The position numbers and the translations under genes were made by a program. From positions 310,001-374,000 of the forward strand of contig JAQMWT010000044.1 of NCBI GenBank assembly GCA_029834535.1: a DNA stretch of 64,000 nucleotides, read 5' to 3'. The stretch comes from Chrysophaeum taylorii. Lineage: Eukaryota; Sar; Pelagophyceae; Pelagomonadales; Pelagomonadaceae. The stretch's first letter is position 1. Each line of letters begins with the position of its first letter. Shown here in pieces: positions 12,063 to 62,300 of this stretch. The notes below the pieces were generated by a model. It saw nothing but the letters and a program-made list of their open reading frames with translations. It had not been told where the DNA came from and did not search any database.

Positions 12063-12424
12063 CCTTACCCTGATCGCCGACTGCGGTTGCGATGGAGGAC
12101 GGTGCCTCATGAATCCTGAGCCTTGCGAGGGCATCCGGCCTCCCGGCGTAGGTTGGCACCTATTCGCCTCCCGGGCGGGCCGGTTGGCAGCCGGAACGTT
12201 CGCAGTGGGACGGGGTATGGCCGAGGGGCGAATACGGAAGGTTATCGACGAGTTGGTTGTCAGTCACATCGCGGTCTCCTCGTCGCATGGCGACAAGCTT
12301 GATGGTCACTCTCCGCCGACCGACCTTTCGGCGCTCCTCGTCTACAGGCCCGTGATTCCGGGCTGGCTCCTGTCGGTCCGGCCTGGCTCCCATGCTCGGG
12401 AGAGGTCTGAAGTTAGTTAGTTAG
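12063..12424 (+). mobile_element. SINE-like retroposon inside the gypsy RT
   Basis: A 362-bp non-coding insertion bounded by a perfect 12-bp duplication and ending in a (TTAG)n tail (12412-12424). Short target duplications of this size plus a 3' tandem tetranucleotide tail are typical of SINEs moved by a LINE. A second, 5'-shortened copy lies in reverse orientation at 41936-42190 and a decayed third copy at about 42715-42835, so this is a dispersed family. I could not recognise RNA polymerase III A/B boxes with confidence, so the tRNA/5S origin is open. Confidence 0.75.
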
Positions 12425-28266: not shown

Positions 28267-28359
28267 CTTGGGGTTTAGGGTATTTATTATCTATCACCCC
28301 TAAAACTTAACCCTTGTCAAGGCAAAGAGAGAGAGAGGTCCTCCTCCTCCTCCTCGCAT
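28267..28359. promoter_or_regulatory. Compact divergent promoter region
   Basis: Only 93 bp separate the two divergent ATGs. The interval contains a T/A-rich TATTTATTATC stretch and G/C-rich CACCCCTAAAACTTAACCC-type motifs on either side. No experimentally known box can be named. Confidence 0.4.
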
Positions 28360-30009
28360 ATGGAGGTGGTTTACGACGACGATTCTATGCGAAACGATAG
28401 TTTGGCGCTCTGGATTGCGAGCGCCGACGGTAAAGTCGATGTAGCTCGCCGCATGCTCGAGCGCGGGGCTCACGTGAACTACGTGGATTATATAGGAAAG
28501 TCGTCTCTTTACGTTGCGAGCCAGAACGGTCACGTGGATGTCGTGCGCCTTCTGCTCGAAGAAGAACACGGGGCCGACGCGAACTTGGTCGACGAGATGG
28601 GCGTCTCGATTCTCCTCGTTGCGTGCCGAGAGCGTCGCACTGACGTCGTACGCCTTCTGCTCGAACGCGGCGCGAACGTCGATCAATCGACCCGCGGACG
28701 AATCAAATCCCCGCTTCGCGTAGCGAGCGAGCACGGCGACGTCGATATCGCGCGCCTTCTGCTCGAACGCGGGGCCAACGTCAACGAGGTCGCGAGCGAT
28801 GGGTCGTGGTGTCTTTACGTCGCGAGCCAGAACGGTCACGTTCTGGTCGCTCGCCTTTTGCTCGAACGCGGGGCCGACCCAAACCAGACCACGATCCGCC
28901 GGGCTTCGTCGCTTTACGTCGCGAGCCATAACGATCACGTTCTGGTCGTTCGCCTTTTGCTCGAGCACGGGGCCGACCCCAACAAGACCACGTTCAGCGG
29001 ATTCACGTCACTCTACATCGCGAGCCAGAACGGTAACGGTCTGGTCGTTCGCATTCTTCTCGAGCGCGGCGCCGACGTCAACCAGGTTATGAGGGATGGG
29101 TTCACGGCTCTTCGCGTTGCGAGCAAGCACGGTCACGTGGATGTCGCGCGCCTTCTGCTCGAGCACGGGGCCAACGTCAACCAGGTCGACGAAGAAGGCG
29201 CCTCGTCTCTTCACGTCGCGAGCGAGAAGGGTTGCCTCGAGGTTGCGCGCGTTCTGCTCGACCGCGGGGCCGCCGACGTAAACCAGGTCGCTCTCAACGG
29301 CTTCTCGCCTCTTCACGTCGCGTGCCAGAACGGTCGCGTCGACGTAGCACGCCTTCTGCTCGAGCACGGGGCCGACGTAAACCAGGCCGCGAGCGACGGC
29401 TTCGCGTCTCTGCACGTCGCGGCCCGAAACGGTCACTTTCTGGTCGCTCGCCTTTTGCTCGAAGAACACGGGGCCAATGTCAACCAGGTCACGAAGCACG
29501 ACGTCTCGTCTCTTCACATTGCGACCCAGAACGGTCGCGTCGACGTCGCGCGCCTTTTGCTCGAACAACGCGGCGGGGCCGACGTCGACGCGGTGACGAA
29601 CGGAGGACAATCGTGTCTTCACGTCGCGAGCCGCAAAGGATATCACGACATCGTGCGCATTCTTCTCGAGCACGATGCGGCGCCGAACCGCGCGGATGAC
29701 GAGGGGTTCACGCCTCTTGCGCACGCCTGCACGAATGGCCGGGTCGAGACCGCGAGAGTTATTCTCGCTCGCCTGCGCGACGTTCGTCGCGACGCGACGA
29801 CCAACGCGAGGTCGATTCTTTACGTCCTGCACATGCGTGGCTTTTTGCGGGGTCTGCCGTGGCTGCCGTACGCAGACACGACGCATGTGGTTTTCAGTAG
29901 TCAACAACCTCAAAGTCTTCGCGACTTGGCCTCGAATCACCCGGCTATCGTACGACTTCTCGACGACGACCGAGTCGCCCGCCCCTCCAAGCGCGCCAGG
30001 CGACAGTAG
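28360..30009 (+). CDS. Ankyrin-repeat protein (549 aa)
   Basis: Intronless ATG-to-TAG frame. Fourteen consecutive ankyrin repeats of 33-35 residues fill residues about 10-485, with the consensus SLHVASQNGHVDVARLLLE followed by RGANVNQV. The repeats are unusually alike in both protein and DNA, which points to recent internal duplication. The N-terminus is a short acidic lead (MEVVYDDDSMRND); there is no signal peptide or membrane segment. The C-terminal tail ends in a basic cluster (RPSKRARRQ) that could serve as a nuclear localisation signal. Ankyrin stacks bind other proteins, so a scaffold or adaptor role is likely, but no partner can be inferred. Strong GC3 codon bias matches the neighbouring host genes. 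Confidence 0.9.
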   Translation: MEVVYDDDSMRNDSLALWIASADGKVDVARRMLERGAHVNYVDYIGKSSLYVASQNGHVDVVRLLLEEEHGADANLVDEMGVSILLVACRERRTDVVRLLLERGANVDQSTRGRIKSPLRVASEHGDVDIARLLLERGANVNEVASDGSWCLYVASQNGHVLVARLLLERGADPNQTTIRRASSLYVASHNDHVLVVRLLLEHGADPNKTTFSGFTSLYIASQNGNGLVVRILLERGADVNQVMRDGFTALRVASKHGHVDVARLLLEHGANVNQVDEEGASSLHVASEKGCLEVARVLLDRGAADVNQVALNGFSPLHVACQNGRVDVARLLLEHGADVNQAASDGFASLHVAARNGHFLVARLLLEEHGANVNQVTKHDVSSLHIATQNGRVDVARLLLEQRGGADVDAVTNGGQSCLHVASRKGYHDIVRILLEHDAAPNRADDEGFTPLAHACTNGRVETARVILARLRDVRRDATTNARSILYVLHMRGFLRGLPWLPYADTTHVVFSSQQPQSLRDLASNHPAIVRLLDDDRVARPSKRARRQ

Positions 30010-43209: not shown

Positions 43210-43522
43210 TGCAGAGAAATCTACTGCCTCTTACCCTTATCCGTCCGTTGAGAACGTGATCTCTTCCTTACCCTTCTTCTTCCTCTCTACACAGTCCTCA
43301 ATTAGTCCTCTGATTCGTGCTCAAGCTCATCATCATGGTCTAGCGCGTCCCGAGGTATGTAGCACTATACACTTTCGTGTAGTTCTAGATGCCGCCTGTC
43401 GTGTTCTGAGGATGTAGGGAACATAACCTTTCATTCCCCGAATTTAATAATACTTCCAGACGTTCATGATGAGACGGGGTGGTTTTCCAGGTGACTTACC
43501 ACTGCATGCTAAATGCTCTGCA
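43210..43522 (+). repeat. Left LTR of the copia-like element
   Basis: 313 bp, starting TGCAGAGAAATC and ending AAATGCTCTGCA; the outermost seven bases are perfect inverted repeats (TGCAGAG/CTCTGCA), with the TG...CA ends usual for LTRs. Very similar to 55040-55365, with some indels, so the insertion is not very recent. Confidence 0.9.
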
Positions 43523-44060
43523 GGTTATGGGCCCAGGCGGGTCCCTGAGAAACCATGTGTTAAAACGTGCACGTAACCACCTATGGGTTTTGGACTGTTA
43601 CCGCGCCGGTCCAGCCTCGACATGGAGACACCCTTGTCAATATAACGCCACTAACATAGGGCTGTATATAGCATATTTTGCTCGCGTAATCGTGTAACAA
43701 CCTTGTGTGCAGCTGTTCATAGTATCGTATTGTCATGTTAATGTTGATGTGTGTGTAAGTTGGCTAACCTGTACTCTTGCACACATGTTATGGAATATTT
43801 TGGGTACGTCCACTCGTACATTCCATGGCAATGCACCTAACAAGCTCCCTGAGAGCAATAAAAATAACCAGCTGCCATGAGTGACTACGCTTAGCGACAC
43901 TACTCTGGACTCACATCTTGCACAGTTGTCAAATAGACATTTATTTTCATCGATAACGGACCATGAGTGTACGTAGACACCGATAGATAGACAGACCCCC
44001 TTAGAATGTCTAGACAGTGTCAACTGCGTGACTGAACCCACAGGTTCCCCGTCAACTGCC
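43523..44060 (+). other. Untranslated leader of the copia-like element
   Basis: Begins GGTTATGGGCCCAGGCGG directly after the LTR, the position expected for the primer binding site; I cannot match it to a particular tRNA with certainty. No long frame until the gag ATG at 44061. Part of it is shared with 37600-37625 on the minus strand. Confidence 0.5.
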
Positions 44061-45130
44061 ATGGCAGAACACGCAGCACGAGCCGCACCCAAGGCGATCA
44101 CAGGTGCGGATATATTGAAGCTCGAAACTCCTGTAGTTGAGTTTCTCAGCGAAGGAAATCGATTTCAGCTTCAGACCCGCAAGGTATCCTTGTAAATTAA
44201 ACATATCAAGCAATTATTACGGTCCAGTCATGCCGATGCCTTCCTCGAGTACGACTCGTACGAAGCATACACTCGGTCATGCAAGGACTACGAGATCCTC
44301 CGGAATCAAATTCTCGATCGCGTTTTCCTGGAATGGAAGACCGATACGGCTGCTGATCTCCGTTTAGCTGTTGATGAATTGCCCCCTGAGTATCAGGAAT
44401 GGCACTTCACCAATGAAGCTTTCCCCAACTTACCTGACGCAGGAGTACCTCAGCTACCTACTGTCTGTTGCGACAATGAAGTCAAGGCATTACGCCCTGA
44501 AATCAATGATCGTTTCTTAGAAGAGGAACAAATATTAAATCGCGCGCACCCGAAAGCATTAGCTTTTGACACCCGTGTTCGTGCCCCTGTTACTGTGTTT
44601 TCGCTAACTGCTGCTGACTGGCACACTTATCAGAACACGTATGCTACATTCTTGCATACTTACTTCAATCTTGAAAGCGTTGGAAAACCAGCACTTGCTG
44701 CCTGGCCCGCCATCAATGAGGTATGTAACAAAAGTTATTTACCCAACAAGGCTCTCGAGCCATTATGCTCATTGCCTTTAGCCACTACGAGTCTGTTACG
44801 ACTACTGATGTGTCCTACTTGAAACAGCAGTTTTACTCTGTTGTTTATAATCCTAACTGGTATGTCCATGTATTTATCGAAGCTGTCCTAGCATTCAGCC
44901 AAATCTCTTACCAACTTAACCAGGAAGAGACTGACCTTCAATTCGACTTTGGTACTCTTTGTAGAAAAAAAAATTATGAAGAGATACATCGGCATTATGC
45001 CGATAATACCAGCAACAATCGTTACGATCGTGGTTGGGTAGATTGGTGTTATATGTATGAAACCCGATCTTCATCTCGACCTGTGCCAGACGCTGAACGA
45101 TTGTGTCACCCCACCAACCCTACGCATTAG
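44061..45130 (+). pseudogene. gag: Gag-like protein of the copia-like element
   Basis: ATG at 44061 opens MAEHAARAAPKAITGADILK. After an in-frame TAA near 44196 the same frame continues (HADAFLEYDSYEAYTRSCKD, then WKTDTAADLRLAVDELPPEY) to 44822, where a frameshift leads to 44765-45130 (YLKQQFYSVVYNPNWYVHVF). The content is helical and without recognised domains, and the position just after the leader is that of gag. No CCHC knuckle is seen. A further 370 bp of coding-like but interrupted sequence follows up to 45503. Confidence 0.6.
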
Positions 45131-45503
45131 ACTTATATAATGTAGTATCAAATGGGTCGAACAAAAGACGCTTAGAACGCCCTGTTTCTTGGCAACCCTA
45201 CGTCGAAGGATTGACACCACAACCAAAGCCAAAACTACTACTGACCAACACGCTGGATTTATCAGACAAAAATCTGACTCAAACTGCAAACACACTCGCG
45301 TCCATTACTTCTTCTCAACCTGGAACATCCTCCGCGTTTAACGCTAGACGCTAGCGTAACTCTAATGATGCTCGCCAGCCTTTCTCTCGCAGTGACCTAT
45401 CGTATTATCGTTCTGTTGATTCTTATGTCACCAAGAAACTGCTGGACAGTCCCATGACCGTCCAATTTACCCTCGCACTTTCGACAGGTCCTCTCGATCT
45501 ACC

Positions 45504-46502
45504 ATGAAATTATTAGATCGAACGAAGCACGCCTTAAATACTACACTGCAAGAGCAGTGTAGTGAACTTACGAAACATGTGACAGATAATGATATCACGG
45601 CTCAGCTACAACAGAACATCACCAAGTTACTTGAGACTCTGTTGCAATCCGCTGATATTCTGTCAACGACATCTACTGATGACAATAGTGACTTAATTCG
45701 CCTAAACGAACAACTCATGTTCGCAGAAGACATCATTTATGATGTAGACGTTCATCTATCCTCGACCGAAAAGTCGTTAAACTACGTGGAGCCACAACAT
45801 CATACTGTTGCTACTGCTCCCACCCCAACGGCAACTCCTCCTACTACAGATACCAAGAATGCCTCCAACACACAGGGTAATCCCTCCGATATTGTGCCTA
45901 ACTTCTTTACTGCTTCCGCCATCTCGGCGTTACCACCAGCGTTACTGTCCTCGCTATCTTCACAGGTCAAATCAGCCATTAACCAACCACCACAAGCCGA
46001 AACCACAAGGGATGTCGATCAGACCTCGCTATCATTATTTGATGAGAAGCACGGCATGGCTGATGAGGCTGACGAACCATCACCACCTGTTCAACCGATT
46101 ATCATTCCAAATCACTTGTTATTTCTGGAGAACTTCTTCACTGCCAGCCTCTCCACTACTTGCCCACATTCGGAAAATGCACTTCTAACCAAATATATGA
46201 AGGTAAACAGTGTCCCCCAACATTGTTCCTTTTTATATTTTGACTCTTGTGCTACCATATCATTGATGTCCACATACGATTTTAAAATACCAAATCATAT
46301 TATTCCACTGGATTCCAAATACGCGCCGATTATCATACAAACCGTCACTGGACAACAACGTGCCTCACATATGATGCTAAAACGTAATATAGTTGTTCCC
46401 CTACCAGATCATCCACAAACCGGCTACGTCAAGATTGAGTTCGCCTTATGTCTTCAGCCAGTGCACAATCGACATCTCGCTATCCTGAGCATGCTCGAGT
46501 GA
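45504..46502 (+). pseudogene. Gag C-terminal region and retropepsin-like protease
   Basis: Open for 332 codons. Residues 1-90 are helical; at residues 88-94 lies the first TEKSLNY motif (45765-45784), followed by a Pro/Thr-rich linker. The protease part is near the end: FLYFDSCATISLMSTYDFKI, IIIQTVTGQQRASHMMLKRN and HNRHLAILSMLE, with the spacing of a retropepsin (catalytic D-S/T-G near the start and an L-L/I-S/G-M strand at the end). The catalytic triplet is D-S-C rather than D-S-G, a single-base change from GGT to TGT, which should impair activity. Assignment is by pattern and by position before the integrase. Confidence 0.65.
45765..45784 (+). repeat. Boundary motif 1 (T-E-K-S-L-N-Y)
   Basis: ACCGAAAAGTCGTTAAACTA, first of five near-identical 20-bp copies in the element; lies between gag and the protease. 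Confidence 0.85.
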
Positions 46503-46861
46503 AACCAGACGAACTTGACCACTGTGTTCAATGATCGATCTGCGCAAAAGCTCAGCGCTGTCACGAGCCGCATAGACAAAGATGTGCGTATTCCCATACA
46601 CTACGTAGCAGCTAATTTACCTGCTCTCCCTTGTCTCACCTACAACATCGCTCGCGACAAGCAACTCGAACTACGCTCCCTCGCATTTCCGCTCAACCGA
46701 TACCACGAAAACAGGGATCTACTGACACATATTACAACTATCTCCTCAAGAGAGTTTTACCAGATCGCCCGTGGATTCGCCCTTTGGTTCTTAATCTTCG
46801 GAAACAGAACAAGTTCGTCCAGCAAAACACTCCGCCGTTAACATGAATACTTTCTTGCTCA

Positions 46862-47890
46862 GTGTTTCTCTCACAAGAGCCCGATCTTCGCACACCCTCT
46901 GTCATGTTGCTCTGTTCTGGTTTGTCAACCCCAGCGTTCCTGTCTCAAGACACTAATGACCTAGGCTTAAATATCAATGTAAAAGTTGTTGTTGAGTCTG
47001 ATGATACGCTTGTGCGCATGTTACGCCACCGTTTTCCTACAGCATTATTATTTGAATCTTTACCCACCTTTATCAACCATCTTCACCTAATCTCACCAGA
47101 GGAAAGGCGCAAATTTTATTGCGATATTATTGAGATCACTTCTCCCTGCACCAACAGGAATCTACTAAAGCAGCATAAGACCGAAGACTTACACAGCCTT
47201 CTCGACGACTCTCTGTTTGACAGCATGCTGTCTGTCATCAAACTTCTCCAACCCTTGGTACTACTGGCTGAGGTGACACCACCCCACAAGTACTGACATC
47301 AAGACCACATAAGCGTCGCCAATCTCATCCATGCCACACTCGATTACTGTGCCGATGTTGTTGACAGGTTCCCGACCTACCTCTGTGGCGACTACCAATC
47401 TAGGGAAAGGATGGACCTGCATCGCACGCAGGTATTCTACTGGACCAATCAACATACTGTCTTGGCATATCCACCATCCACGCCCCTTCCTTAAGATCGT
47501 GGATGACATACAAGCCATTCCTAAGCGACTTTGGCTATCCAAACATACCGCCAAAGGTTGGATCCGGGTGTTCCCCGATCCTCCATATGTCCCCGTTCCT
47601 AAAGCTTTTGCACCTTACTCTCGCACAGGTTCTGTTCAGCTTACTATGACTGACCTTGAAACACTCAATATGTTGTTTTTGCGCCGTCACTCACAACAGG
47701 CTCACGAGCAACGCACGCACTCTGTTCAATCCGAGTGTACTTACCATCAGCTGTGTTTCAAACGCTCCTCCATGGATCCGCTGCCTCATGCAACTAACCC
47801 ACTGCATGTCAAGGCTTTTACCATCCTCTGTAACGTGTTTGCCAGATTGCACACTAACTCACCCACTCCTGTGTCCTATTACATAACCGT
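46862..47890 (+). pseudogene. C5-cytosine DNA methyltransferase domain inside the copia-like element
   Basis: The frame from 46862 shows conserved methyltransferase motifs in order: motif I SVMLLCSGLSTP (residues 13-24), motif II VKVVVESDD with Glu45, motif IV IIEITSPCTN with the catalytic Pro95-Cys96 (Cys codon 47147-47149), and motif VI region LVLLAEVTPP. After a TGA at 47297-47299 the same frame gives motif VIII, QSRERMDLHRTQVFYWTN. Motifs IX and X continue in another frame: SVQLTMTDLETLNMLF and ATNPLHVKAFTILCNVF. Such enzymes transfer methyl groups to cytosine C5 in DNA. The spacing and HRTQVFYW block look DNMT3-like, which is tentative. The catalytic Cys is kept, but a stop and a frameshift break the gene. 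Retrotransposon-encoded methyltransferases have been reported in dinoflagellates and charophytes. Confidence 0.72.
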
Positions 47891-47929
47891 TTTCGAAACT
47901 GACCAACCGTCAGTCACATAGGTTACTAC

Positions 47930-48480
47930 TTACAACCTCATCAACATCCCATAATACCTACTTCCTAACCGGCGGCCACCATTCTGACGGCAACCTCACC
48001 ATAGAAAACGCCGCCACCAAATATCATGCTTGCATTGACGCGTTTGGAAGCACGTATACGTTTACTGCCTCCAACGTCCCCCGCGACAGAGACAGGTCTA
48101 TATATTTGGAGCCGTTTATGGGTTACTTGTGGATAATCCAACCCCTTCCTCAAGTTGGCTCCGCTGCCACCTATGGCACCGCCATACAAAAGCTCTTGTC
48201 CAGATGCTCCCTTGTGATGCCTGGCTGCCTTACCTACAAGGCCACCAACAATTCTTTCGACTACAAGGATTCTCATTTTGCTCTGGAAGATCACCACTTA
48301 TCTCATAGTCGCTATATAGGGTATCTTCGTGGAAGTGACACCAAACTCGGCTCTAAAATCCACTCCATGCTTGCTCCATTGCCTACCGTCCGCGGATATG
48401 CAAACATTATCTTATTACTCGACCTTCGCAACGGGAAATTACGCTATCCCACTCGACCGGAGTTGATTCGTGCTAACTAA
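47930..48480 (+). pseudogene. Uncharacterised polyprotein region between methyltransferase and integrase
   Basis: The main frame (to a TAA at 48478) reads NLTIENAATKYHACIDAFGS, DRSIYLEPFMGYLWIIQPLP and GTAIQKLLSRCSLVMPGCLT, ending RGYANIILLLDLRNGKLRYP. Clearly protein-like, but no domain recognised. It could be the C-terminal part of the methyltransferase or an N-terminal extension of the integrase. Confidence 0.5.
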
Positions 48481-50703
48481 CCACACCAAACAACAGGAAT
48501 CTTTCCTCTTGTCTCTTCGCCACGACCTTTGCTGCGACATGCTCAGCAATGCTCTGCCTGCCGGTACGTACAGCACACTGTACAAGCACCTTTCGCTCCT
48601 CGTTGCCGATATTAAATCCCTTATGTTGGACCCTACCTTCCAACATACTGCTGCCGTGACGAAGAAATCCTATGTATCCAACTTCATGACCTTTGATCCG
48701 GCCTCCACCACGTGCAGCACAGATACCTTGTCTTTGGCACAGGCCTTTATGGCGTCTATCTCCTGCAATTGCTTGACCGAAATGTCGTTAAACTATATAT
48801 CTTCGTCCTACGAAGATACTCTCGCTACTCGTGATGATGAGGATGCACCTCCAAGTGACCCTGCTGCGCACCAGGATGACGACGCACCACCTCCTCCTGC
48901 CTTGGACACCGAACTCAAGTTCGATGTTCGGCGCAAACGTCATATCCCCGCTCATCCCATTCCTCGCAAATCCTTCGCACACGGATCTGCTGAATACCTC
49001 AACGCCAAAGAACGTGCCAATCGCTTCCACCGGGTGCACCACTGCCCCGACAACGTCGCAGCCAAGGCCCCCAACGTACTGGCTCGCCCTGGCTTCTCTG
49101 CCTCCGACCTACCGTATCGCGACTTATGCACCGACTGCATCGCACATAACAAGCGCCACCCGCACAAGCACTTCAATCCGACCAAGCCCTCTTTTGAGCA
49201 AACTCACAAAGCCGGCGAAGTCTGGGCGTGCGACGGCGGCTATGTGACAATTCCATCAGAATGGGGAGGCTTCACACATATTATTGTGTTCAAAGAACTT
49301 ATCTCGAAGTTTCTCTTGGTGTACTTTACACGCACCACCAACGCCACGGAGTTCGCTCAAGCTCTAGACTTTGTGTATGACTTTTGTCGTACACAAATCA
49401 ACGTGCACATGCGCACCCTCTAGTCAGATGCCTTCAAGCCCTATTTTAGCCAGCACATTACCTCCCCGTACCGCGTCGATAAGGGCATTCAGCTCATCGC
49501 TTTCCGTACATGCACCACTTTAACTTTGAAGTCGAGTTAGCCATCGGCTTCATCGCCTCCGCCTCCTCAACTCGCCTTCGTTCTCTCCTTCATGCTCATT
49601 ATCGTAGCTCAAAGATCGTGGAGCGCGCTATCATGTTTCCCTGGGCGGTAATACACACCATCCAAAGCTACAACCTTCTCCCGAACGCCACGCTCGAGCG
49701 CATTCACCATGCTATCCTGGGTCCGCAACAGCTACTCTACAACCAACTAAACACCCCCCAGCATGACATGCTCAAGATCTTCGGCGCTGAATGCTACCTT
49801 CTATTGGAACCCCACGAGCACCACAAGTGGGAACCGTGCCGCCGCAAATATCTGTATCTCTGTTGCGCCAACGCACAAAACCCGCTCGTCTCCCCACGTG
49901 TTGACCATATTGCCGACGTCGTCCTCAACCCTGAAAACGGACAAATTCGTGTTTCGTCCAAGCTGCAATTTCTCTACATGCTCCAGCATCCTACTCCTGA
50001 TCCTGAACTTGCTCCTCCGCCTCACGCTCCTCCCACGCCTTTCTCGCTCACACCCCACGCTGCTATCCAAGACCATGTCATTCAGAGGGGGACACGGACA
50101 CTTCATCCTCAGAGGGGGCACTCTCCACCTCACTCAGCTCCTTCTTCATCCCCTGCTCCTGCCTCTCTTCACATTTCCGACGCTCCCGTCGACGAATCTG
50201 GCTCTATGCCACCGCCGCCCTTGCTTCCTTCTTACAAAGACCTTTTCTCACAAGATGACCTCATTCTTGTCCCAGGTTCCAAACAACCTAACACCCGCAA
50301 GGCAACCTCCATGAAAAATATCCAAGCCCGGCTGCAAGCGTCTACTATTGGTGCTTACGCTGGTGGCAAACTCGCCGATTCCCGCTGGGATCTTCGCCAC
50401 CACTTTCTTACGTTCAAGTCTCCCGCCCTCTCCGCCCTTCATATCAATGGTGGTATCCTGTGGTCTGCTATCTGCTCAGAGGGGGAACATGCGTTGTTAG
50501 CTCGTCTCCTTCTCCCGTTGCGCACTGACTTAATAGCCCGTCACCCTCGCGTCGATGGTTACTTCGCCCACGCTAAGTGCGCATCCAGCATCCCAGCCGC
50601 CACCTTTCTAACTGCTGATGGCTCACCTACGTGCCCCATTCCTCAGCCTCTCTTAGCTGCGTTCACTGAACACGCTGCTGCCTTTGGCATCTCTTCCTTA
50701 TAG
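48470..50703 (+). pseudogene. pol: Integrase of the copia-like element
   Basis: After the second boundary motif (48776-48795) comes a Pro/Asp-rich linker and then a zinc-binding HHCC region: RFHRVHHCPDN and LCTDCIAHNKRH. The catalytic core starts with VWACDGGYVTIPSEWGGFTH (first Asp). A TAG at about 49421 and then a frameshift near 49500 interrupt it; on both sides the homology continues (SDAFKPYFSQ with the second Asp, and SSKIVERAIMFPWAVIHTI with the catalytic Glu). A C-terminal tail (ECYLLLEPHEHHKWEPCRRK, YLYLCCANAQNPLVSPRVDH) fits the copia integrase C-terminal domain, followed by a long Pro-rich linker up to the third boundary motif. Confidence 0.8.
48776..48795 (+). repeat. Boundary motif 2 (T-E-M-S-L-N-Y)
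   Basis: ACCGAAATGTCGTTAAACTA; lies just before the integrase zinc-binding region. Confidence 0.85.
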
Positions 50704-50951: not shown

Positions 50952-52840
50952 TAATTCACCAGCCATTGTTGGTCCTGACGAATATAAGGTCCAAGAAGCG
51001 GACGTTTCCATTGACGAATATAAACTTAAGTGCCTCCACGGTATGTCGCCTGAAGACAGGCACGCCTACCTCAAGGCCATCGCCAAGGAACTCCACGACA
51101 TTATCCGCTTTGGCTGCTTCAAACTTTCATTACCCGACAGTGTCTCTCGCCCTATTGACAGCAGGATGGTGCTGAAGATTAAAACAGACTCTGCAGGCAA
51201 ATACGTTAAGCACAAGGCCCGCCTCGTGCTACTTGGCTTTCTAGCATCCCTTGGCGCCGATTTCTTTGGCACCTTCAGCCCAATGGCCACAATGACCGCA
51301 ATCCGGGTACTACTGGCTATTGCAGCATACAAGCAATTGCCTGTCTACCAAGCAGACGTCCCGAACGCCTTCGTTCAGTCTGACATTGATGCCAACGTCT
51401 ATGTTCAGTTACCAGACGGCATCAAGCTTATCGACCCCGATGACGCTAAGTACAAGGGCCGACGCCTACCGAAACTGCTGAAGTCACTTTATGGACTTCG
51501 TCAATCGCCATCTCTTTGGAACAAAGAGATAGACGGCTTCTTCCGTAGCCTTGGCTACAAGCGCCTGCATTCGGACTCTTGCCTATATGCTCGAGTATCC
51601 GCACATGCTAAGTTCGTCGTATGCAGTCTGTCTGTAGACAACATTGTTGTTGTGTCCAATGATAACAATTCTTCGTACTGAGTTACAGGATGCCCTCCAC
51701 CAACGGTATGCTGTAGAGCAGTTTGAACCTGTCCATACCCTCCTAGGCATGCGTGTGTGTCGCACATCTGATGGATCCATTTCCCTGGATGTGCAAGCCA
51801 AGCTTGATGAACTCTTCGCTGATCATCCTGTCTTGCAGCAACTAACCCCGCTTAAATATTCAATGTCCTCGTCTTTCAAGTATAAAGATGGCACTCCCAG
51901 CTCTGAAACAGAGTTGTACATCAACTCGCACTTTGCCACCCTCCTTGGCAAGCTGGTGTTCTTGCAAGTGGCCTGCAGACTTGACTTCTCGCAAGCCTTG
52001 GGCAGATGTTCGCGTGGTATGCATGCACCCAAGTATGTTCGCGTTCAAATGCTAGAGCACCTGCTCCGCTACCTGAGGAAGCCCGAAAACCGCTCACTTC
52101 GCCTCTGGTTCCATCCTAAAGGTAATGCTATTGAAGCTCACCTTCGCACTGTTTCCGCTAATCGAATTGATCTTTCCACTGTGGTTGACTACCAACCGCA
52201 GGATGTGTCCACTGGACAGTTTGATCCCTTAGTTGCCATGGTTGACGCTGACAACGCCCCTTCCATAGCACAGGAAGATAGGAAATCTACCGCCGGGTTT
52301 GTCTTCTATCTTTTCAACTGCCTTATTGGTTGGAAAAGCACGCTTCAACCGATTGTCTCCTGCTCAACTCACGAAGCTGAGTTGATTGCCCTCAGTGTTT
52401 GTGCTGATGAAGCTGTTTGGCTACGCAAGCTGCTGTTGGAACTCTCCTTTGCCGTCAACCCCACCTTTTACGTCAACAATGTTAACGGTGAGAACACCGC
52501 TGATCCTGTTCATTTCGATGACAATGACAACCCAATTGCTGAAGATATGCGCTTCATCAGAAGCCTACCTCTCTTGTCTGACAATGCTGCTGCTGTTCAC
52601 ACCTCTAATAACCCAGATGGATCCTCTCGATCCAAGGCAGTGTCGACCAGATGGTTTAAGATCCGTGAGTACATCTCGCTACAGAAAATTCGAGTCCATC
52701 ATGTTCCCGGCAAGCTAAACGTGCCTGATGGTTTTACAAAGCCACTTGCTGCTGAGTTCTCCATTTTTCGTTCTCTACTCGGTATGCATCATGCCTCTGA
52801 CGACAAGCCTCTACAGGATAGAAGATGCCTAACGCTAGTG

Positions 52841-52860
52841 ACCGCAACGTCGTTAAACTA
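52841..52860 (+). repeat. Boundary motif 4 (T-A-T-S-L-N-stop)
   Basis: ACCGCAACGTCGTTAAACTA; at the end of RNase H. The codon that is TAC or TAT (Tyr) in the other copies is TAG here, ending the pol frame. Confidence 0.85.
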
Positions 52861-52907
52861 GCCCTGGCCCTACCTTCTTTTGCCACAAATTTTTTGTACG
52901 TGTGTGA

Positions 52908-54893
52908 GTGTTGCTCATGTCCTTTTCTTGGCACTCCCGTGGCCGCGGCATCTCCCCAGTCGTTCGAAGGACAGTCCCACGCCCGCTCTCCACGGCCGAA
53001 CCTTCTCCCAGGTTGTCGAAAAAGCGACAACCTATGACCGCTGTTACTGCTACCCCACAGGCTGCTGCTGTTGCACCGACACCAGCCGAAAATATCTTAC
53101 CTCAATCGCTAACGCTCCAGGACGGCCTCAGCATGGACTATGCTTTGTACGAACGAGGAATCTCTCTCCTTGAGAACTTCCGTGTCCCTGTCACCCCATT
53201 TCTCTCTTCTTTTATGCGAGTGGAACTCATCTCAGCCCTACACTCTGTCTATGAGTCTACTGACTTTTCATTGTTTGTGGAACTGACCACATTCATATCC
53301 ATGCGCTTACCCATTACTATACCTTGGGAAGCTGCTCCTGCTATTGCTTCTATTGGCTGCTACAGAGGCCCCAAACGCGAACGTTTCATTTTGTCGTCCT
53401 TTTGTACGCAATGCCTTACTGATCTTGGACAACCGACTTTCCTCGTCTCGACCACGTACAGTTCCAAGGCACAAACACCTCGTGAACTTCCCACTGAAGT
53501 GCTGAGTCATCTCAACACGGACGACCATAAGAAGAATGGTCACATCCCCATCTCTGCTATTACTATGGGTATGTGCTTTGTTTGTCACAATACTGGTCAG
53601 GTGCCTATACAACCTACTGTATGTGCTCGCAATGATACTTCCTTCCAATTCCCTTGTGATGCGCGCTCAGCTGGTCATATACGCGCTACCCTCATACGCA
53701 TCTATCATTTGCCAAGGGAGTTATATACTCTTTTGACAAGTATACTAGCACAACACCCGTCACTTGTTAACTTGGTCTTATCTGTATCCGCTCTGGCCAC
53801 AACAGATCCTACTACACAATGGCCATTCGCACTGGATCTTCGGCTTATAACACAGATGCACCTTGAGCATCTTAATTTCCTTGTGACCCTTGTTCGAACA
53901 CAGAGTCGCAAAGCTCAGGCTATGTTCAAGCCCTCCAAATTCCAACCTGTGGTTACCACAGTTGCCCAATCGTGGGTACAACATCTTGACGACTACGTAT
54001 CATCTTCAGATGATACAAAACCGCCGTCACTCCTGGATGTAATGTTCGGCCCCACTTATACTCAGGCAGAACACCAAGACTTTCTGCGCTTTTTAAACGC
54101 GAAACACCCCCTACTTGCACAGCATGTGTTGACCGAAACGTCGTTAAACTACTCAATCTCCACATCAGACCCAACTCTGGAGATGTCTTCGCCATCGACA
54201 CACCCTGCGCCTTCTGCCTCGCTTGATGATGTCGATGCCTTGCGTCAACAAGTCGAACAACCCCAGGAAACTCTTCGTCTACACATCCGCAAGGTCAACA
54301 TTCTCAGTGCTGAGAATCAATCTCTACGCACAGATCTACAGGCTGCCATTGCTTCAATCACCTCCCTGGAGAACCGGCTCTTACCTCCTACAGCCAACGC
54401 GCACGTGTTACTTATAACACTGTACAAGATCACAGAGCTGTTGTCTCGCTTAACTCTTAGCGCTCATGACCAATATGCCGCCAACCACTCCTCCCAGGAC
54501 GATCACCTCCTTCATCTGCGTGACAAGTTGCTCTCGTGTATTCAGAGCATCCCATTCGCATGTGAATCGGAAGACTCTTCTATCTTCTCGGATCCGTTCG
54601 CTGAGTCCAACTTCTTGGAAAACCAACTGGACACCCTGCAACTTGACTCGCTGGTGCCATCCATACTGAATGCTTTACTTGCACTCACGTTTCGCGTGGT
54701 ACCACACCATTCTGCTATTGGTGTTCACCACCTTACAGCAGAAGCTGACGACGACGATACCGATACTCTCGAACCAGTAACGATGTTCACCACCTCAGAT
54801 AGCCTTAACACACTGTCTGTCGTACCTGTGTTTCGTAATGCTCTGTTCAAAAGCGTCAAGTCGACTCTCAGCTCCACCAAGTCCACGCCCTAA
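52908..54893 (+). CDS. Extra 3' ORF of the copia-like element (661 codons), function unknown
   Basis: A long frame open to the TAA at 54891-54893, in a different frame from pol. The start given is a non-ATG or internal codon; the first 60 codons (Arg/Pro-rich) are doubtful. The body is Thr/Leu/Ser/Pro-rich (QSLTLQDGLSMDYALYERGI, LTTFISMRLPITIPWEAAPA). The fifth boundary motif (TETSLNY) lies at 54132-54151, about two thirds along. It is followed by a coiled coil (DDVDALRQQVEQPQETLRLH, LSAENQSLRTDLQAAIASIT). No signal peptide, membrane anchor or envelope-like motif is evident. It is the longest uninterrupted frame in the element, which suggests either later loss or chance survival. It is followed by 150 bp to the polypurine tract. 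Confidence 0.6.
   Translation: MLLMSFSWHSRGRGISPVVRRTVPRPLSTAEPSPRLSKKRQPMTAVTATPQAAAVAPTPAENILPQSLTLQDGLSMDYALYERGISLLENFRVPVTPFLSSFMRVELISALHSVYESTDFSLFVELTTFISMRLPITIPWEAAPAIASIGCYRGPKRERFILSSFCTQCLTDLGQPTFLVSTTYSSKAQTPRELPTEVLSHLNTDDHKKNGHIPISAITMGMCFVCHNTGQVPIQPTVCARNDTSFQFPCDARSAGHIRATLIRIYHLPRELYTLLTSILAQHPSLVNLVLSVSALATTDPTTQWPFALDLRLITQMHLEHLNFLVTLVRTQSRKAQAMFKPSKFQPVVTTVAQSWVQHLDDYVSSSDDTKPPSLLDVMFGPTYTQAEHQDFLRFLNAKHPLLAQHVLTETSLNYSISTSDPTLEMSSPSTHPAPSASLDDVDALRQQVEQPQETLRLHIRKVNILSAENQSLRTDLQAAIASITSLENRLLPPTANAHVLLITLYKITELLSRLTLSAHDQYAANHSSQDDHLLHLRDKLLSCIQSIPFACESEDSSIFSDPFAESNFLENQLDTLQLDSLVPSILNALLALTFRVVPHHSAIGVHHLTAEADDDDTDTLEPVTMFTTSDSLNTLSVVPVFRNALFKSVKSTLSSTKSTP
54132..54151 (+). 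repeat. Boundary motif 5 (T-E-T-S-L-N-Y)
   Basis: ACCGAAACGTCGTTAAACTA; inside the extra 3' ORF, just before its coiled coil. Confidence 0.85.
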
Positions 54894-55029: not shown

Positions 55030-55039
55030 CTCGAGGGGG
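55030..55039 (+). promoter_or_regulatory. Polypurine tract of the copia-like element
   Basis: CGAGGGGG ends exactly at the right LTR start, the expected position for the plus-strand DNA primer. Confidence 0.7.
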
Positions 55040-55365
55040 TGCAGAGAAATCTGCTGCTGCCTCTTACCCTTATCCGTCCGTTGAGAAAGTGATCTCTTCC
55101 TTACCCTTCTTCGTCCTCTCTATACAGTCCTCAATTAGTCCTCTGATATTTGTGCTCAAGCTCATCATCATGGTCTAGCGCGCGCCCCGAGGTATGTCTA
55201 TACACTTAACCCCTTTCTCGAGTAGTTCTAGATGCCGCCTGTCGTGTTCTGAGGATATAGGGAACATAACCTTTCATTCCCCGAATTAAATACTTCCAGA
55301 CGTTCATCATGATGACGGGATGGTTTCCCAGGTGAGTTGCACCACTGCATGCTAAATGCTCTGCA
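55040..55365 (+). repeat. Right LTR of the copia-like element
   Basis: 326 bp, TGCAGAG...CTCTGCA, highly similar to 43210-43522. Differences include a CTG insertion early on, an inserted ATTTGTG-like segment near 55147 and substitutions near 55200-55220. Confidence 0.9.
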
Positions 55366-56349: not shown

Positions 56350-59300
56350 TTAGGCAGTTTCTGAAAAGAAGATGCCAGTTCTGCGAGCATAAGCGCCTTC
56401 TTCTTCTTCTTCGAGGCTGAGGAAGACGTCGTCGGGAGGAAGGGGGTCAGTTGCGAACAGGTCGTCGTCTTTATATTCCGATACTTCGACGATTTCGCGC
56501 AATTCTTTGGGTGGAACATCAACCAACAACGGATTAGGCTTATTGTCGGACGGAATCTCGTCGATCTCGATGAAGAGTTCGTCGATCGAATCGTCGAGGA
56601 AACCAGCAAAGGAAGGTGCGGCATACAAGCCTCTGCTGCGGAAGAACTGGAGCATACCGTAGGCGAGAACGACAAGATTCGTGAAGAAGCCGAGAGCAGT
56701 CGCGTAGTCGGGATCCGCGAGAATTAAAAAAGCGATCTTGGTAACGAGTTGCAGCGCCGAGGACGCGGCGGAGATAGCTATCGCGCGCGCGTAGACGCGC
56801 GGGCTCCCGGTGGTAATAATAGTCCCCGGAAGCAAGAGCCACGGACTAAACGCGATGCCGACGACGAGACTTGGTTCGAGGTATTTCTTTGTTGCCAATA
56901 ACGAAAATAAGACGCGAGCGGCGATGATGGCGAGGCCGATCCACGAGTAAACGCCGTGGCGAAGACATACGAACAAAAAGTCGCAGCCAGCGTCGCAGAC
57001 AGCAAAATAGAGGAAGGGGGAGCGTTTCCGGCCAACGACGATCAACCCCGCGAGCGTGATAATCCCGACTGCAACGTAGCAATTCGAAGAAGAAGAAGAA
57101 GAAAAGCTCCTGTGCTGCTGGGATGACGCAGCCTCATCCTCCAAGATCGCGAATTCCCCAGTGTAGAATACGGTCTCGCTCAGACGTCTACGACCTCCTC
57201 CGGTAGCAGCGGCGACAACGTAGGTGACGAAGCGGTAGTCGTAGCGAGGGACGCCGAGAGATGGCGACGGAAGGGTATGCGTGGATACGACGGTCCCAGC
57301 TTGGACGAAAGACTCGTTTGCAATTAGATCTGAGAATTCTCTGCACGGCTCGACGTCGTCGCCGTTCGCACACAAAAGGGTCTTAACTCGGACATTTTGA
57401 GCCGACGCGCGAAACGTGTAAGACAACGCGAAGGTGTCGCCCACGTAGAGGTGAGCGGAGTTGTTCGCCATGTCGATTTCTGCGTCTTCGGCGTCCAAAA
57501 CAGACATTGTGGAGAGAATCATCGAATCCCCGGATGCCGCCGCCGCAGCAGCAGAAGATGTTTTGGGGCAAGAACACTCGTATTCGCCGGTATACCCTCT
57601 TCCGTGGAGTTCGATGCCGTTCAAATCGTTTCCGTTGTATGACTTGGCGACGATGAAGCCGTCGACGTAGCCTATGTTTTGGTTCAGGAGTTCGACGTGC
57701 GCGAACGGAGCGAGCACGGATGGTCCGAACTGTCGACCTCCGCCGTCGGTGAGGAGAACGTCCGCGGTTCCGAGGAAAACGACCAGCGTTTTACCGTTGT
57801 TCGCGCCCTGAGAGTTTTGATCCCCAAAGTCGAACAGGTTCCAAGTGTCGCCCGCCTGTTGCGTGACCACGTACACGTTCTCGGCTGGTTCGATCGAGAG
57901 CGCGAGCGCCTCTATATCTTCCCAGCTTTTGAACCAACCAGGGAGAAAGGACGTATTCACGCCGCTCTGGAACCGCACGTTATCGAGCGGGAGTCCGTCG
58001 TTCACATAACTGGGCCCCTGGTCTTGAAAATTTGATGCGATCTCGATACTGTCGCCACCGTCTTTTCGCGTCAGGTTGCCACCAATGACGATGGGTCCGT
58101 AGATAGTCTTCGCCGCGATGTCTGCGTCGTCCCGCGTGATGAGCGTGTACTGCCGAAATTTGGTGATCAGCTTGCTGTACACATCGTTCTCCTCGCAAGA
58201 AAAAGTCGTGCCATTCGGCGGGCACACTCCATCGCGAGTGGTCGGAGCTGGCACCGGTGCCGAGCTGGGCAAGGCTGTCGGTGCCGCGAGTGGTCCTTGT
58301 GATGGTGCACTAGTAGGGCCGGCCAAAGGAGTGCTCGATGGCTGCGACGTGGGCGCGCTGATTGGCGAACCAGAGGGACTGACAGTCGGATCTGGCACCG
58401 GCGCCAAGCTGGGCAAGGCTGTCGGTGCGGGGAGTGGTCCTCGAGATGGTCCACTAGTAGGGCCGGCCAAAGGAGTGCTTGTTGGCTGCAACGTGGGTGC
58501 GCTGATTGGCAAACCAGAGGGACTGACAGTCGGAGCTTGTAATGGCGTCGCGCTGGGCAAGGCTGTCGGTGCCGCGAGTGGTCCTCGAGATGGTGCACTA
58601 GTAGGGCCGGCCAAGGGGGTGCTCGTTGGCTGCGACGTGGGCGCGCTGATTGGCGAACCAGAGGGACTGACAGTCGGATCTGGCACCGGCGCCGAGCTGG
58701 GCAAGGCTGTCGGTGCGGCGAGTGGTCCTCGAGATGGTGCACTAGTAGGGCCGGCCAAAGGAGTGCTTGTTGGCTGCAACGTGGGCGCGCTGACTGGCGA
58801 ACCAGAGGGACTGACAGTCGGATCTGGCACCGGCGCCAAGCTGCGCAAGGCTGTCGGTGCGGGGAGTGGTCCTCGAGATGGTCCACTAGTAGGGCCGGCC
58901 AAAGGAGTGCTTGTTGGCTGCAACGTGGGTGCGCTGATTGGCAAACCAGAGGGACTGACAGTCGGAGCTTGTAATGGCGTCGCGCTGGGAAAGGCTGTCG
59001 GTGCCGCGAGTGGTCCTCGAGATGGTGCACTAGTAGGGCCGGCCAAAGGAGTGCTTGTTGGCTGCAACGTGGGCGCGCTGACTGGCGAACCAGAGGGACT
59101 GACAGTCGGATCTGGCACCGGCGCCAAGCTGCGCAAGGCTGTCGGCGCAGCATGCGGTCCTTGTGATGGTGTCCTTGTAGGGCCTGCGGCAAATGGAGTG
59201 CTCGTTGGCTGTGCCGTGGGCGCGCTGACTGGCGAAGCAGAGGGGCTGACAGTCGGAGCTTGTAACGGCGCCGAGCTTGGCAAGGCTGTCGGTGTCGCGA

Positions 59301-62300
59301 GTGGTCCTTGTGATGGTGTCCTTGTAGGGCCGGCGGCAAATGGAGTGCTCGTTGGCTGTGCCGTGGGCGCACTGATTGGCGAACCAGAGAGACCGACAGT
59401 CGGAACTGGCAGCGGCGCCAAGCTTGGCAAGGCTGTCGGTGTCGGGCACGAACACTCGTATTCGCCGGTATACCCTCTTCCGTGGAGTTCGATGCCGTTC
59501 AAATCGTTTCCGTCGTATGACTTGGCGACGATGAAGCCGTCGACGTAGCCTATGTTTTGGTTCAGGAGTTCGACGTGCGCGAACGGAGCGAGCACGGATG
59601 GTCCGAACTGTCGACCTCCGCCGTCGGTGAGAACAACGTCCGCGGTTCCGAGGAAAACGACCAACGTTTTCCCGTTGTTCGCGCCCTGCGCGTTCTGATC
59701 CCCAAAGTCGAACAGGTTCCAAGTGTCGCCCGCCTGTTGCGTGACCACGTACACGTTCTCGGATGGTTCGATCGAGAGCGCGAGCGCCTCGATGTCATCC
59801 CAGCTTTTGAACCAACCCGGGAGAAAGGACGTATTCACGCCGCTCTGAAACCGCACGTTATCGAGCGGGAGTCCGTCGTTGACGTAGCTCGGTCCTCGAT
59901 CTTGAAAATTCGATGCGATCTCGATGCTGGCGCCATCGTCTTTTCGCGTCAGGTTGCCACCGATGACGATGGGTCCGTAGATGGACTTCGCCGAGATGTC
60001 TGCGTCGTCCCGAGTGATGAGCGCGTACTGCCGAAATTTGGTTATCAGCTTGGTGTACACATCGTCCTCCTCGCAAGAATAAGTCGTAGCATTCGGCGGG
60101 CACACACCATCGCTCGCCGAGGGAGTGAGCGTCGTCGGAGCTGGCACGAGCACCGAGCTTGGCAGGGCTGTCGGTGTTTCGAGCGGTCCATGTGATGGTG
60201 TCCTTGTAGGGCCGGCGGCAAATGGAGTGCTCGTTGGCTGTGCCGTGGGCGCACTGACTGGCGAACCAGAGAGACTGACTGTCGGAACTGGCAGCGGCGC
60301 CAAGCTTGGCAAGGCTGTCGGTGTCGGGCACGAACACTCGTATTCGCCGGTATACCCTCTTCCGTGGAGTTCGATGCCGTTCAAATCGTTTCCGTCGTAT
60401 GACTTGGCGACGATGAAGCCGTCGACGTAGCCTATGTTTTGGTTCAGGAGTTCGACGTGCGCGAACGGAGCGAGCACGGATGGTCCGAACTGTCGACCTC
60501 CGCCGTCGGTGAGGAGAACGTCCGCGGTTCCGAGGAAAACGACCAACGTTTTCCCGTTGTTCGCGCCCTGCGCGTTCTGATCCCCAAAGTCGAACAGGTT
60601 CCAAGTGTCGCCCGCCTGTTGCGTGACCACGTACACGTTCTCGGATGGTTCGATCGAGAGCGCGAGCGCCTCGATGTCATCCCAGCTTTTGAACCAACCC
60701 GGGAGAAAGGACGTATTCACGCCGCTCTGGAACCGCACGTTATCGAGCGGGAGTCCGTCGTTGACGTAGCTCGGTCCTCGATCTTGAAAATTCGATGCGA
60801 TCTCGATGCTGGCGCCATCGTCTTTTCGCGTCAGGTTGCCACCGATGACGATGGGTCCGTAGATGGACTTCGCCGAGATGTCTGCGTCGTCCCGAGTGAT
60901 GAGCGCGTACTGCCGAAATTTGGTTATCAGCTTGGTGTACACATCGTCCTCCTCGCAAGAATAAGTCGTAGCATTCGGCGGGCACACACCATCGCTCGCC
61001 GAGGGAGTGAGCGTCGTCGGAGCTGGCACGAGCACCGAGCTTGGCAGGGCTGTCGGTGTTTCGAGCGGTCCATGTGATGGTGTCCTTGTAGGGCCGGCGG
61101 CAAATGGAGTGCTCGTTGACTGCGCCGTGGGCGCACTGATTGGCGAACCAGAGAGACTGACTGTCGGAACTGGCAGCGGCGCCAAGCTTGGCAAAGCTGT
61201 CGGTGTCGGGCACGAACATTCGTATTCGCCAGTATACCCTCTTCCGTGGAGTTCGATGCCGTTCAAATCGTTTCCGTCGTATGACTTGGCGACGATGAAG
61301 CCGTCGACGTAGCCTATGTTTTGGTTCAGGAGTTCGACGTGCGCGAACGGAGCGAGCACGGATGGTCCGAACTGTCGACCTCCGCCGTCGGTGAGAACAA
61401 CGTCCGCGGTTCCGAGGAAAACGACCAACGTTTTCCCGTTGTTCGCGCCCTGCGCGTTCTGATCCCCAAAGTCGAACAGGTTCCAAGTGTCGCCCGCCTG
61501 TTGCGTGACCACGTACACGTTCTCGGATGGTTCGATCGAGAGCGCGAGCGCCTCGATGTCATCCCAGCTTTTGAACCAACCCGGGAGAAAGGACGTATTC
61601 ACGCCGCTCTGGAACCGCACGTTATCGAGCGGGAGTCCGTCGTTGACGTAGCTCGGTCCTCGATCTTGAAAATTCGATGCGATCTCGATGCTGGCGCCAT
61701 CGTCTTTTCGCGTCAGGTTGCCACCGATGACGATGGGTCCGTAGATGGACTTCGCCGAGATGTCTGCGTCGTCCCGAGTGATGAGCGCGTACTGCCGAAA
61801 TTTGGTTATCAGCTTGGTGTACACATCGTCCTCCTCGCAAGAATAAGTCGTAGCATTCGGCGGGCACACACCATCGCTCGCCGAGGGAGTGAGCGTCGTC
61901 GGAGCTGGCACGAGCACCGAGCTTGGCAGGGCTGTCGGTGTTTCGAGCGGTCCATGTGATGGTGTCCTTGTAGGGCCGGCGGCAAATGGAGTGCTCGTTG
62001 ACTGCGCCGTGGGCGCACTGATTGGCGAACCAGAGAGACTGACTGTCGGAACTGGCAGCGGCGCCAAGCTTGGCAAAGCTGTCGGTGTCGGGCACGAACA
62101 TTCGTATTCGCCAGTATACCCTCTTCCGTGGAGTTCGATGCCGTTCAAATCGTTTCCGTCGTATGACTTGGCGACGATGAAGCCGTCGACGTAGCCTATG
62201 TTTTGGTTCAGGAGTTCGACGTGCGCGAACGGAGCGAGCACGGATGGTCCGAACTGTCGACCTCCGCCGTCGGTGAGAACAACGTCCGCGGTTCCGAGGA

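Follow-up and report, generated by a model that had tools for sequence, protein, structure and literature searches.

A predicted C5-cytosine methyltransferase domain in the Pol frame of Ty1/copia retrotransposons from a probable red-lineage alga

Introduction

Retroelements with a cytosine methyltransferase of their own are known from very few lineages. In 2018, such enzymes were reported in LINE and DIRS elements of Symbiodinium and in a Gypsy element of Klebsormidium, with the DIRS-borne Dnmt3 methylating CG de novo (PMC5890265). In the sections of that report considered here, the Copia elements of Symbiodinium are described as devoid of any DNMT domain, and its Discussion leaves open the reason why retroelements carry a cytosine methyltransferase (PMC5890265). 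A 2025 paper, which reports the deep branches of the DNMT phylogeny as unresolved, places DNMT3, in 1 sentence that refers to the 2018 work, within DIRS and "LTR Copia" elements (PMC12344493); the cited passages of the latter say Gypsy, not Copia (PMC5890265). Ty3/Gypsy and DIRS elements are listed as methyltransferase-bearing in the relevant part of a 2019 review, and no retroelement-borne methyltransferase is described in the corresponding part of a 2023 survey of diatom DNMTs. Judging from the portions of the respective papers considered, a DNA transposon of Ectocarpus carries an N4/N6-type methyltransferase, not a copia-borne C5 enzyme (PMC12477816), and no copia-borne C5 enzyme is shown in rust fungi (PMC12210899). 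Among the open-access titles and abstract openings listed in our searches, with preprints and most subscription papers outside their scope, none beyond the papers cited above describes a C5 methyltransferase in any retroelement, and none describes one in a copia element.

Here, we analyze a stretch of 64,000 nucleotides (hereinafter, the window) and the 70.8 Mb genome assembly to which it belongs. The first-pass annotation of the window had proposed a C5-cytosine methyltransferase embedded in a Ty1/copia-like element, and this proposal holds: the predicted domain recurs in 3 copia families, is apparently maintained by purifying selection and lies in Pol frames together with a reverse transcriptase (RT). 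Elements of the copia superfamily with a putative C5 enzyme that lacks a Dnmt3 match, from a host that is probably a red-lineage alga, extend a known phenomenon.

Organization of the element in the window

The element is a defective, degraded copy of a Ty1/copia retrotransposon of approximately 12.2 kb, with all features located on the forward strand. It is bounded by a 5′ LTR of 313 bp (43210..43522; TGCAGAG...CTCTGCA) and a 3′ LTR of 326 bp (55040..55365), whose alignment comprises 294 identical and 12 mismatched columns plus 27 with gaps; both start with TGCAGAG and terminate in CTCTGCA. The 5′ LTR is directly followed by a primer-binding site (PBS)-like sequence, GGTTATGGGCCCAGG (43523..43537), assigned by eye, which we liken to the internal tRNA-iMet (half-tRNA) priming presumed for Drosophila copia, and a polypurine-like tract, CTCGAGGGGG (55030..55039), also assigned by eye, is located just before the 3′ LTR. 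The copy has TG..CA LTR ends, a putative PBS and polypurine tract, and the order protease-integrase-RT with an RT of the RVT_2 type, as expected of a Ty1/copia element. No target-site duplication was found at this copy, the only one inspected in this respect and a degraded one, the 5 bp on its two sides being different.

The internal region begins with a relic of ORF1 (44061..46843) encompassing gag and protease, the latter recognized solely by the protease-like motif DSCAT (46242-46256), assigned by eye. An in-frame TGA (46844..46846) marks the boundary between the protease and the predicted C5-cytosine methyltransferase domain, which spans approximately 355 residues with motifs I to X (46847..47912) and lies between protease and integrase. 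The integrase (48940..49504) comprises an HHCC zinc-finger-like stretch identified by eye and an rve core, the match to which (49205-49363) scores 17.1 bits, under the Pfam cut-off of 32.6; the ensuing SH3_retrovirus match (49753..49872; E 5.4e-5, 23.4 bits) is under the Pfam cut-off of 27. By contrast, the copia-type RT domain, RVT_2 (51130..51666), is matched with an E-value of 4.6e-36. The end of the RT and the RNase H region extend to the end of pol (51667..52861), the RNase H being recognized by eye in a region that yielded no Pfam match.

Two further parts of the element deserve a description of their own. The Pol stretch of approximately 300 residues in the interval between methyltransferase and integrase (window approximately 47913-48900) is partly alignable between families A and B (see below) and, by eye, with family C; scanned in loci L042 and L048, this interval produced no Pfam match. 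Between pol and the 3′ LTR lies ORF3 (52908..54893), which encodes 661 aa with a coiled-coil look by eye, matches no Pfam family at E 0.001 and has a relative in locus L050; it is open although pol of the same copy is broken.

The degradation of the window copy is evident from gag-protease and pol being spread over several frames with internal stops, and extends to the methyltransferase, which is broken by 1 in-frame stop and 1 frameshift. Motifs I (46913-46942), II (46991-47002), IV (47141-47149; Ser-Pro-Cys, with the cysteine being catalytic by analogy), VI (47267-47287) and VIII (47387-47410) share a single frame, whereas motifs IX and X, assigned by eye and reaching up to approximately 47912, are in another. 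The coordinates and the LTR alignment agree with the first-pass placement of the motifs, in the right order, between protease and integrase and inside matching LTRs, with motifs I to VIII in 1 frame interrupted solely by a TGA (47294).

Homology of the methyltransferase block

Pieces of the window have no match to PF00145, even with the limit set at E 10, and neither do the scanned copies of family A, to which the window element belongs. Because of this lack of Pfam matches, the window letters alone do not prove a methyltransferase, and the domain must be judged by its relatives. An intact frame of 371 aa (locus L011), searched against 5.8 billion proteins, finds a single protein, P0001, which is 40% identical over 96% of the length; P0001 is a 392-aa transcript product from the transcriptome source "mmetsp". 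An alignment-based protein search, in which the best 8000 candidates were scored, uncovered a second protein, P0002. The match of P0001 to PF00145 (E 4.4e-4, 20.2 bits) is just below the cut-off of 22 bits, and that of P0002 (E 6.1e-5, 23 bits) is above it. Sequences of a sister family of elements in the genome, family C, share approximately 39% to 44% identity with P0001, to which they align throughout, and 2 of the 4 scanned have sub-threshold matches to PF00145 (E 0.12 and 0.078).

The PF00145 check proposed at first pass, on the window region itself, was negative, as it was for family A; P0002 and a third family, family B, match above the cut-off. The first-pass annotation had named the lack of a significant PF00145 match as refuting its proposal, but the window family has diverged beyond the reach of Pfam, and a rejection on this ground would be wrong.

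Profile-based comparisons connect the divergent families to the one recognized by Pfam. A profile built from P0001, P0002, 1 family-C and 1 family-A sequence (A12), that is, with no family-B sequence, aligns collinearly with family B in hhalign, with 281 columns covered at E 2.1e-8 and a probability of 95%; as a negative control, a related profile (A5) was compared with an RT region, where 32 columns were aligned at E 0.28. Before the diverse relatives were added, 5 near-identical family-A sequences matched family B in hhalign at E 0.025. In HMMER, A12 scores 31.4, 27.8 and 24.3 bits against 3 family-B methyltransferases, with the best of 2000 shuffles reaching 2.8; chance resemblance is thus excluded at the family level, since the family-B scores lie far above those of the shuffles.

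Searches against the PDB point to the same enzyme class. A combined profile, consisting of family B, families A and C, P0001 and P0002, matches M.HhaI at E 1.5e-6, compared to E 0.044 for the longer alignment of family B alone (E 0.0025-0.009 for a shorter family-B alignment). All 13 sequences matched by the combined profile at E≤0.01 are C5 methyltransferases, 11 of them versions of M.HhaI, as are 17 of the 19 matched at E≤1. Profiles without family B retrieved no methyltransferase from the PDB at E≤1, and P0001 alone retrieved 1, at E 0.49, ranked after unrelated designed ankyrin proteins. Dnmt3 entries were absent from the PDB matches of the family-B profile at E≤5 and of the combined profile at E≤1. 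Among NCBIfam models, dcm (TIGR00675) matched family B below its cut-off, nothing was found for P0001 or family C, and P0002 gave 2 unrelated weak matches. No homologues of family B were found at E≤0.01 among 3695 candidates from 5.8 billion proteins, and a search of viral contigs found no homologues. The AlphaFold model of P0001, computed from a 4-row alignment, is poor (pLDDT 41, pTM 0.38), and Foldseek with this model returned no methyltransferase among the best 50 of 1445 matches. As judged from these sequence relationships, the block is a divergent C5-cytosine methyltransferase domain.

Families, copy number and position in Pol

A 149-aa piece of the window methyltransferase matches at least 150 places in the 70.8 Mb assembly, itself included (best 150 of 821 candidates), the other family-A places among the matches listed being 81% to 94% identical to it. 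A genome search with P0001 gave 105 matches, 25 at listed family-A places and 80 elsewhere; the latter constitute family C, of which 20 places (L021-L040) were fetched. The PF00145 genome search hit 57 places, and none of them overlaps those listed for families A and C. Two are the host proteins L001 and L002 (see below), and the other 55 are counted as family B, of which 6 were read as loci and a seventh lies within L048; the remaining places were assigned by the same partial PF00145 match. In total, at least 285 places match the domain (at least 150 of family A, 80 of family C and 55 of family B).

The domain recurs at a constant position. In L048, a protease-like motif (by eye), a PF00145 match over the cut-off, a weak rve match and RVT_2 are all encoded in a single frame of 1801 aa, and this layout implies that family B is also a copia family. 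Similarly, methyltransferase, integrase and RT share 1 frame of 1691 aa in L042, where the methyltransferase is below Pfam's reach. Family C has the same layout as family A. More generally, among the best 150 of 1670 RVT_2 candidates, 62 have a listed methyltransferase match upstream on the same strand at a distance of 3.4 to 6.3 kb (48 from family A, median 4.5 kb, and 14 from family C, median 4.0 kb); in a control that counted listed methyltransferases on the incorrect side or strand, the same 150 gave 2. Of the 88 RVT_2 hits with no such listed partner, 3 were fetched. The domain is present in all of them, in the case of L050 its C-terminal half only; copies wholly lacking the block, which the first-pass annotation had named as evidence against its proposal, were accordingly not encountered among the 3 places inspected. 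Collectively, the methyltransferase domain is, as read from these frames, part of the copia Pol and occupies the same place in 3 copia families.

The stretch behind the methyltransferase through the integrase is collinear between families A and B (23% identity), and their RTs are alignable (43% identity over 148 residues); on this ground, the data would fit 1 capture before the families parted, with independent gains also possible.

The lack of a direct Pfam match for the window pieces would be compatible with a resemblance that arose by chance or with a nested insertion at a later time. However, the homology detected with the combined profile, the match between A12 and family B and the presence of PF00145 and RVT_2 in a single frame speak against it, as do the shared position in 3 families and the domain in all 3 inspected unpartnered RVT_2 places. 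We regard this explanation as exceedingly improbable and reject it in view of the homology results, the constant place and the RVT_2 linkage.

Motif conservation and selection

Alignments of family members display the order I-II-IV(Cys)-VI(Glu)-VIII(QxRxR)-IX-X. Motif IV is Pro-Pro-Cys in 4 of the 5 aligned family-A copies, and loose patterns for motifs IV, VI and VIII are found in 30, 29 and 30, respectively, of the 31 loci with motif I. Motif I itself reads SGLST, a degenerate form which we consider unusual against the usual one, and SAM binding is for this reason not assured. In motif VI, families A and C have Met-Thr in place of Asn-Val, which we take to be the usual form.

Among copies with an unbroken domain, the methyltransferase is apparently under purifying selection, with median dN/dS values of 0.118 in family A (15 pairs, 6 sequences) and 0.056 in family C (135 of 136 pairs, 17 sequences), similar to that of the RT (0.065; 9 pairs, 7 sequences, approximately 100 residues); the methyltransferase values describe 23 unique sequences with an unbroken domain, compared in within-family pairs that are not independent, from loci chosen by similarity to the query and, for family C, to P0001. 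Between families A and C, synonymous sites are saturated.

The altered motifs I and VI would agree with a domain that is no longer catalytic and serves Pol as a structural component or in nucleic-acid binding; strong constraint would be equally expected of a structural component. Against this, no aligned member of families A and C departs from the motif-IV cysteine, the motif-VI glutamate or the motif-VIII QxRxR, nor do P0001 and P0002, and family B retains Pro-Cys (IV) and Glu-Asn (VI), though not the motif-VIII glutamine. We therefore judge loss of catalysis to be decidedly improbable.

The UGA junction and expression of Pol

The junction between the protease frame and the methyltransferase was examined in 32 loci of families A and C (L009-L040), of which 1 (L022) has no motif match and was left unscored. 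The in-frame stop is TGA in all 31 scorable loci, the window copy included, with family C contributing 19 of the 20 fetched loci. Of the 12 family-A loci, 5 have an ATG immediately after the TGA, on account of which separate initiation may take place in this family. Among the 19 family-C loci, the interval from the TGA to motif I is free of in-frame ATG codons in 18. The conserved UGA is probably a site of programmed bypass, for which Tca2 (see below) is a precedent; in this candidate for readthrough, the protease is encoded ahead of the UGA, together with gag. No significant RNA fold was detected 3′ of the UGA in 4 sequences (z-scores of 0.04, −0.51, 0.04 and −0.92) in a prediction of pseudoknot-free structures; readthrough does not always need a 3′ RNA structure.

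Family B is organized differently. In both copies inspected (L047 and L048), gag and the frame for protease, methyltransferase, integrase and RT overlap at CTTTTTCGCTGA, in the −1 frame. The sequence CTTTTTCGCTGA is a possible frameshift site in this family.

Host genes and other features of the window

Two host proteins were classified by eye, a Dnmt2-like protein of 360 aa containing PPCQPHTRQ (L001) and a large Dnmt5-like protein encoded by an open frame of 2086 aa (L002). In the assembly, the Dnmt2-like gene adjoins a light-harvesting gene (PF00504), the best PDB matches of which are VCPI-6, followed by FCP8 and dinoflagellate-type peridinin-protein complexes, names that we take to denote red-lineage antenna proteins. 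The first-pass suggestion that the host represents another lineage than those with described retroelement methyltransferases is likely to be correct. The antenna matches include peridinin proteins of the dinoflagellate type, and a dinoflagellate is made unlikely solely by the genome size of 70.8 Mb, dinoflagellate genomes being generally far larger; taken with this size, the antenna gene points to an ochrophyte, a haptophyte or a similar alga. Its corollary, an independent capture or a wider distribution of retroelement methyltransferases, is a reasonable suggestion.

Elsewhere in the window, an ORF at 11121-12119 resembles, by eye, the N-terminal part of a Ty3/gypsy-type RT and has no Pfam match at E 0.001. 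An open frame at 28279-30009 encodes a 576-aa ankyrin-repeat product in which 12 Ank stretches are recognized. A tandem-repeat ORF at 58103-59548, with a GALVGPAKGVLVG-like unit, is open on both strands and has weak glycine-zipper matches below the cut-off.

Possible role of the methyltransferase

We see an even chance that a copia Pol with a C5 methyltransferase is produced via UGA bypass and packaged, and that the enzyme methylates the element's own cDNA before integration. ORF1 (gag-protease) would terminate at the UGA, behind which methyltransferase-integrase-RT-RNase H continues in the same frame, and occasional bypass would yield this latter part; because of the bypass, the methyltransferase would be as abundant as the other pol products and would enter the particle along with RT and integrase. 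Within the particle, it could then methylate cytosines of the double-stranded cDNA, and the new copy might resemble methylated host DNA or evade surveillance of unmethylated DNA. The proposal is founded on the place of the domain in Pol and on the de novo CG methylation by the DIRS-borne Dnmt3 (PMC5890265).

A more specific scenario, which we put forward tentatively and hold to be possible rather than likely, is that copia captured a C5 methyltransferase of bacterial type, not Dnmt3, before the families split. The enzyme would have been kept in Pol, behind a UGA switch in 2 families and a possible frameshift in the third, and would have spread to hundreds of copies while marking the element's own cDNA. 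Such self-labelling would be akin to the modification half of a restriction-modification system and might conceal new copies from host sensing of unmethylated DNA.

It is unlikely, in our estimate, that an active enzyme acts instead on RNA, whether the tRNA primer or the genomic RNA in the particle, and so promotes priming, packaging or the stability of the RNA. An RNA target would be in keeping with the chemistry of Dnmt2-type enzymes, which employ the motif-IV cysteine in the same way on tRNA, and with the PBS, which looks like that of internal tRNA-iMet priming. In the 2018 work, RNA is suggested as a possible target of the LINE-borne enzyme, which did not methylate DNA in yeast (PMC5890265). 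However, the domain does not specifically resemble the Dnmt2-like protein of the host, with hhalign E-values of 0.031 (220 columns) and 0.26; the Dnmt5-like protein gave 0.011 and an unrelated control 0.28, and neither of the 2 host proteins beat the best shuffles in HMMER with A12. Moreover, the position in Pol beside RT and integrase suits cDNA equally.

The CG content was considered with regard to methylation of the copies themselves and of the host. The observed/expected CG ratio is 0.90 in the element and 1.26 and 1.35 in the flanks, with TG and CA being richer in the element. Among copies, CG>TG changes exceed CH>TH changes by 1.1-fold in family A and 1.3-fold in family C, as counted in gappy DNA alignments, and CG>CA is below CH>TH in family C. 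Heavy CG methylation of the copies is not indicated, since the CG>TG excess is slight. The CG-poor, TG/CA-rich composition and the very high copy number would be in line with an enzyme that acts on the host, methylating insertion sites or the genome at large or competing with host silencing, but the small CG>TG excess argues against this, and the linkage to pol favors activity inside the particle. We find such host action rather improbable and retain methylation of the element's own cDNA as the preferred reading.

Significance and comparison with known systems

With 3 copia families and hundreds of places in a genome of 70.8 Mb, these elements would provide an independent and convenient case, which could help to ask whether the enzyme of a retroelement marks cDNA, RNA or host chromatin. 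They also illustrate that Pfam-based surveys can miss divergent families, the window family, with at least 150 places, being invisible to PF00145.

Bacterial C5 methyltransferases, including M.HhaI, are stand-alone enzymes of restriction-modification systems. They are the best PDB matches of the combined profile and have a similar order of motifs; the match to M.HhaI extends over no more than a portion of the domain, and profiles of family A or of family C by themselves miss the bacterial enzymes.

With respect to expression, the closest parallel is Tca2 of Candida albicans, a member of the copia superfamily. In Tca2, an in-frame UGA likewise separates the upstream and downstream frames, with pol expressed from the same RNA, but the UGA is located between gag and pol, whereas in the elements described here the protease is upstream of it (PMC2194720). 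The sequence flanking the UGA of Tca2 was insufficient for readthrough in yeast, and the sections of that paper considered here do not mention a methyltransferase (PMC2194720).

Among the retroelement-borne enzymes, the "LTR Copia" of the 2025 paper, according to its single sentence, concerns DNMT3, and the section concerned gives no description of an element (PMC12344493); a DNMT3 entry is missing among the PDB matches obtained here. SymbioLINE-Dnmt and SymbioDIRS-Dnmt3 of Symbiodinium resemble the present elements in being cytosine methyltransferases present in hundreds of copies, with Dnmt3 of the latter located in Pol, but reside in a LINE and a tyrosine-recombinase DIRS element, respectively, rather than in copia (PMC5890265). 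KnitGypsy-Dnmt3 of Klebsormidium nitens, which has fewer copies than the Symbiodinium elements, differs in being a Gypsy element with a Dnmt3-family enzyme, a charophyte host and a DIRS-like repeat layout; like the window element, it is an LTR retrotransposon with the methyltransferase in Pol and several copies, and its enzyme is also under purifying selection, with Ka/Ks < 0.2 (PMC5890265).
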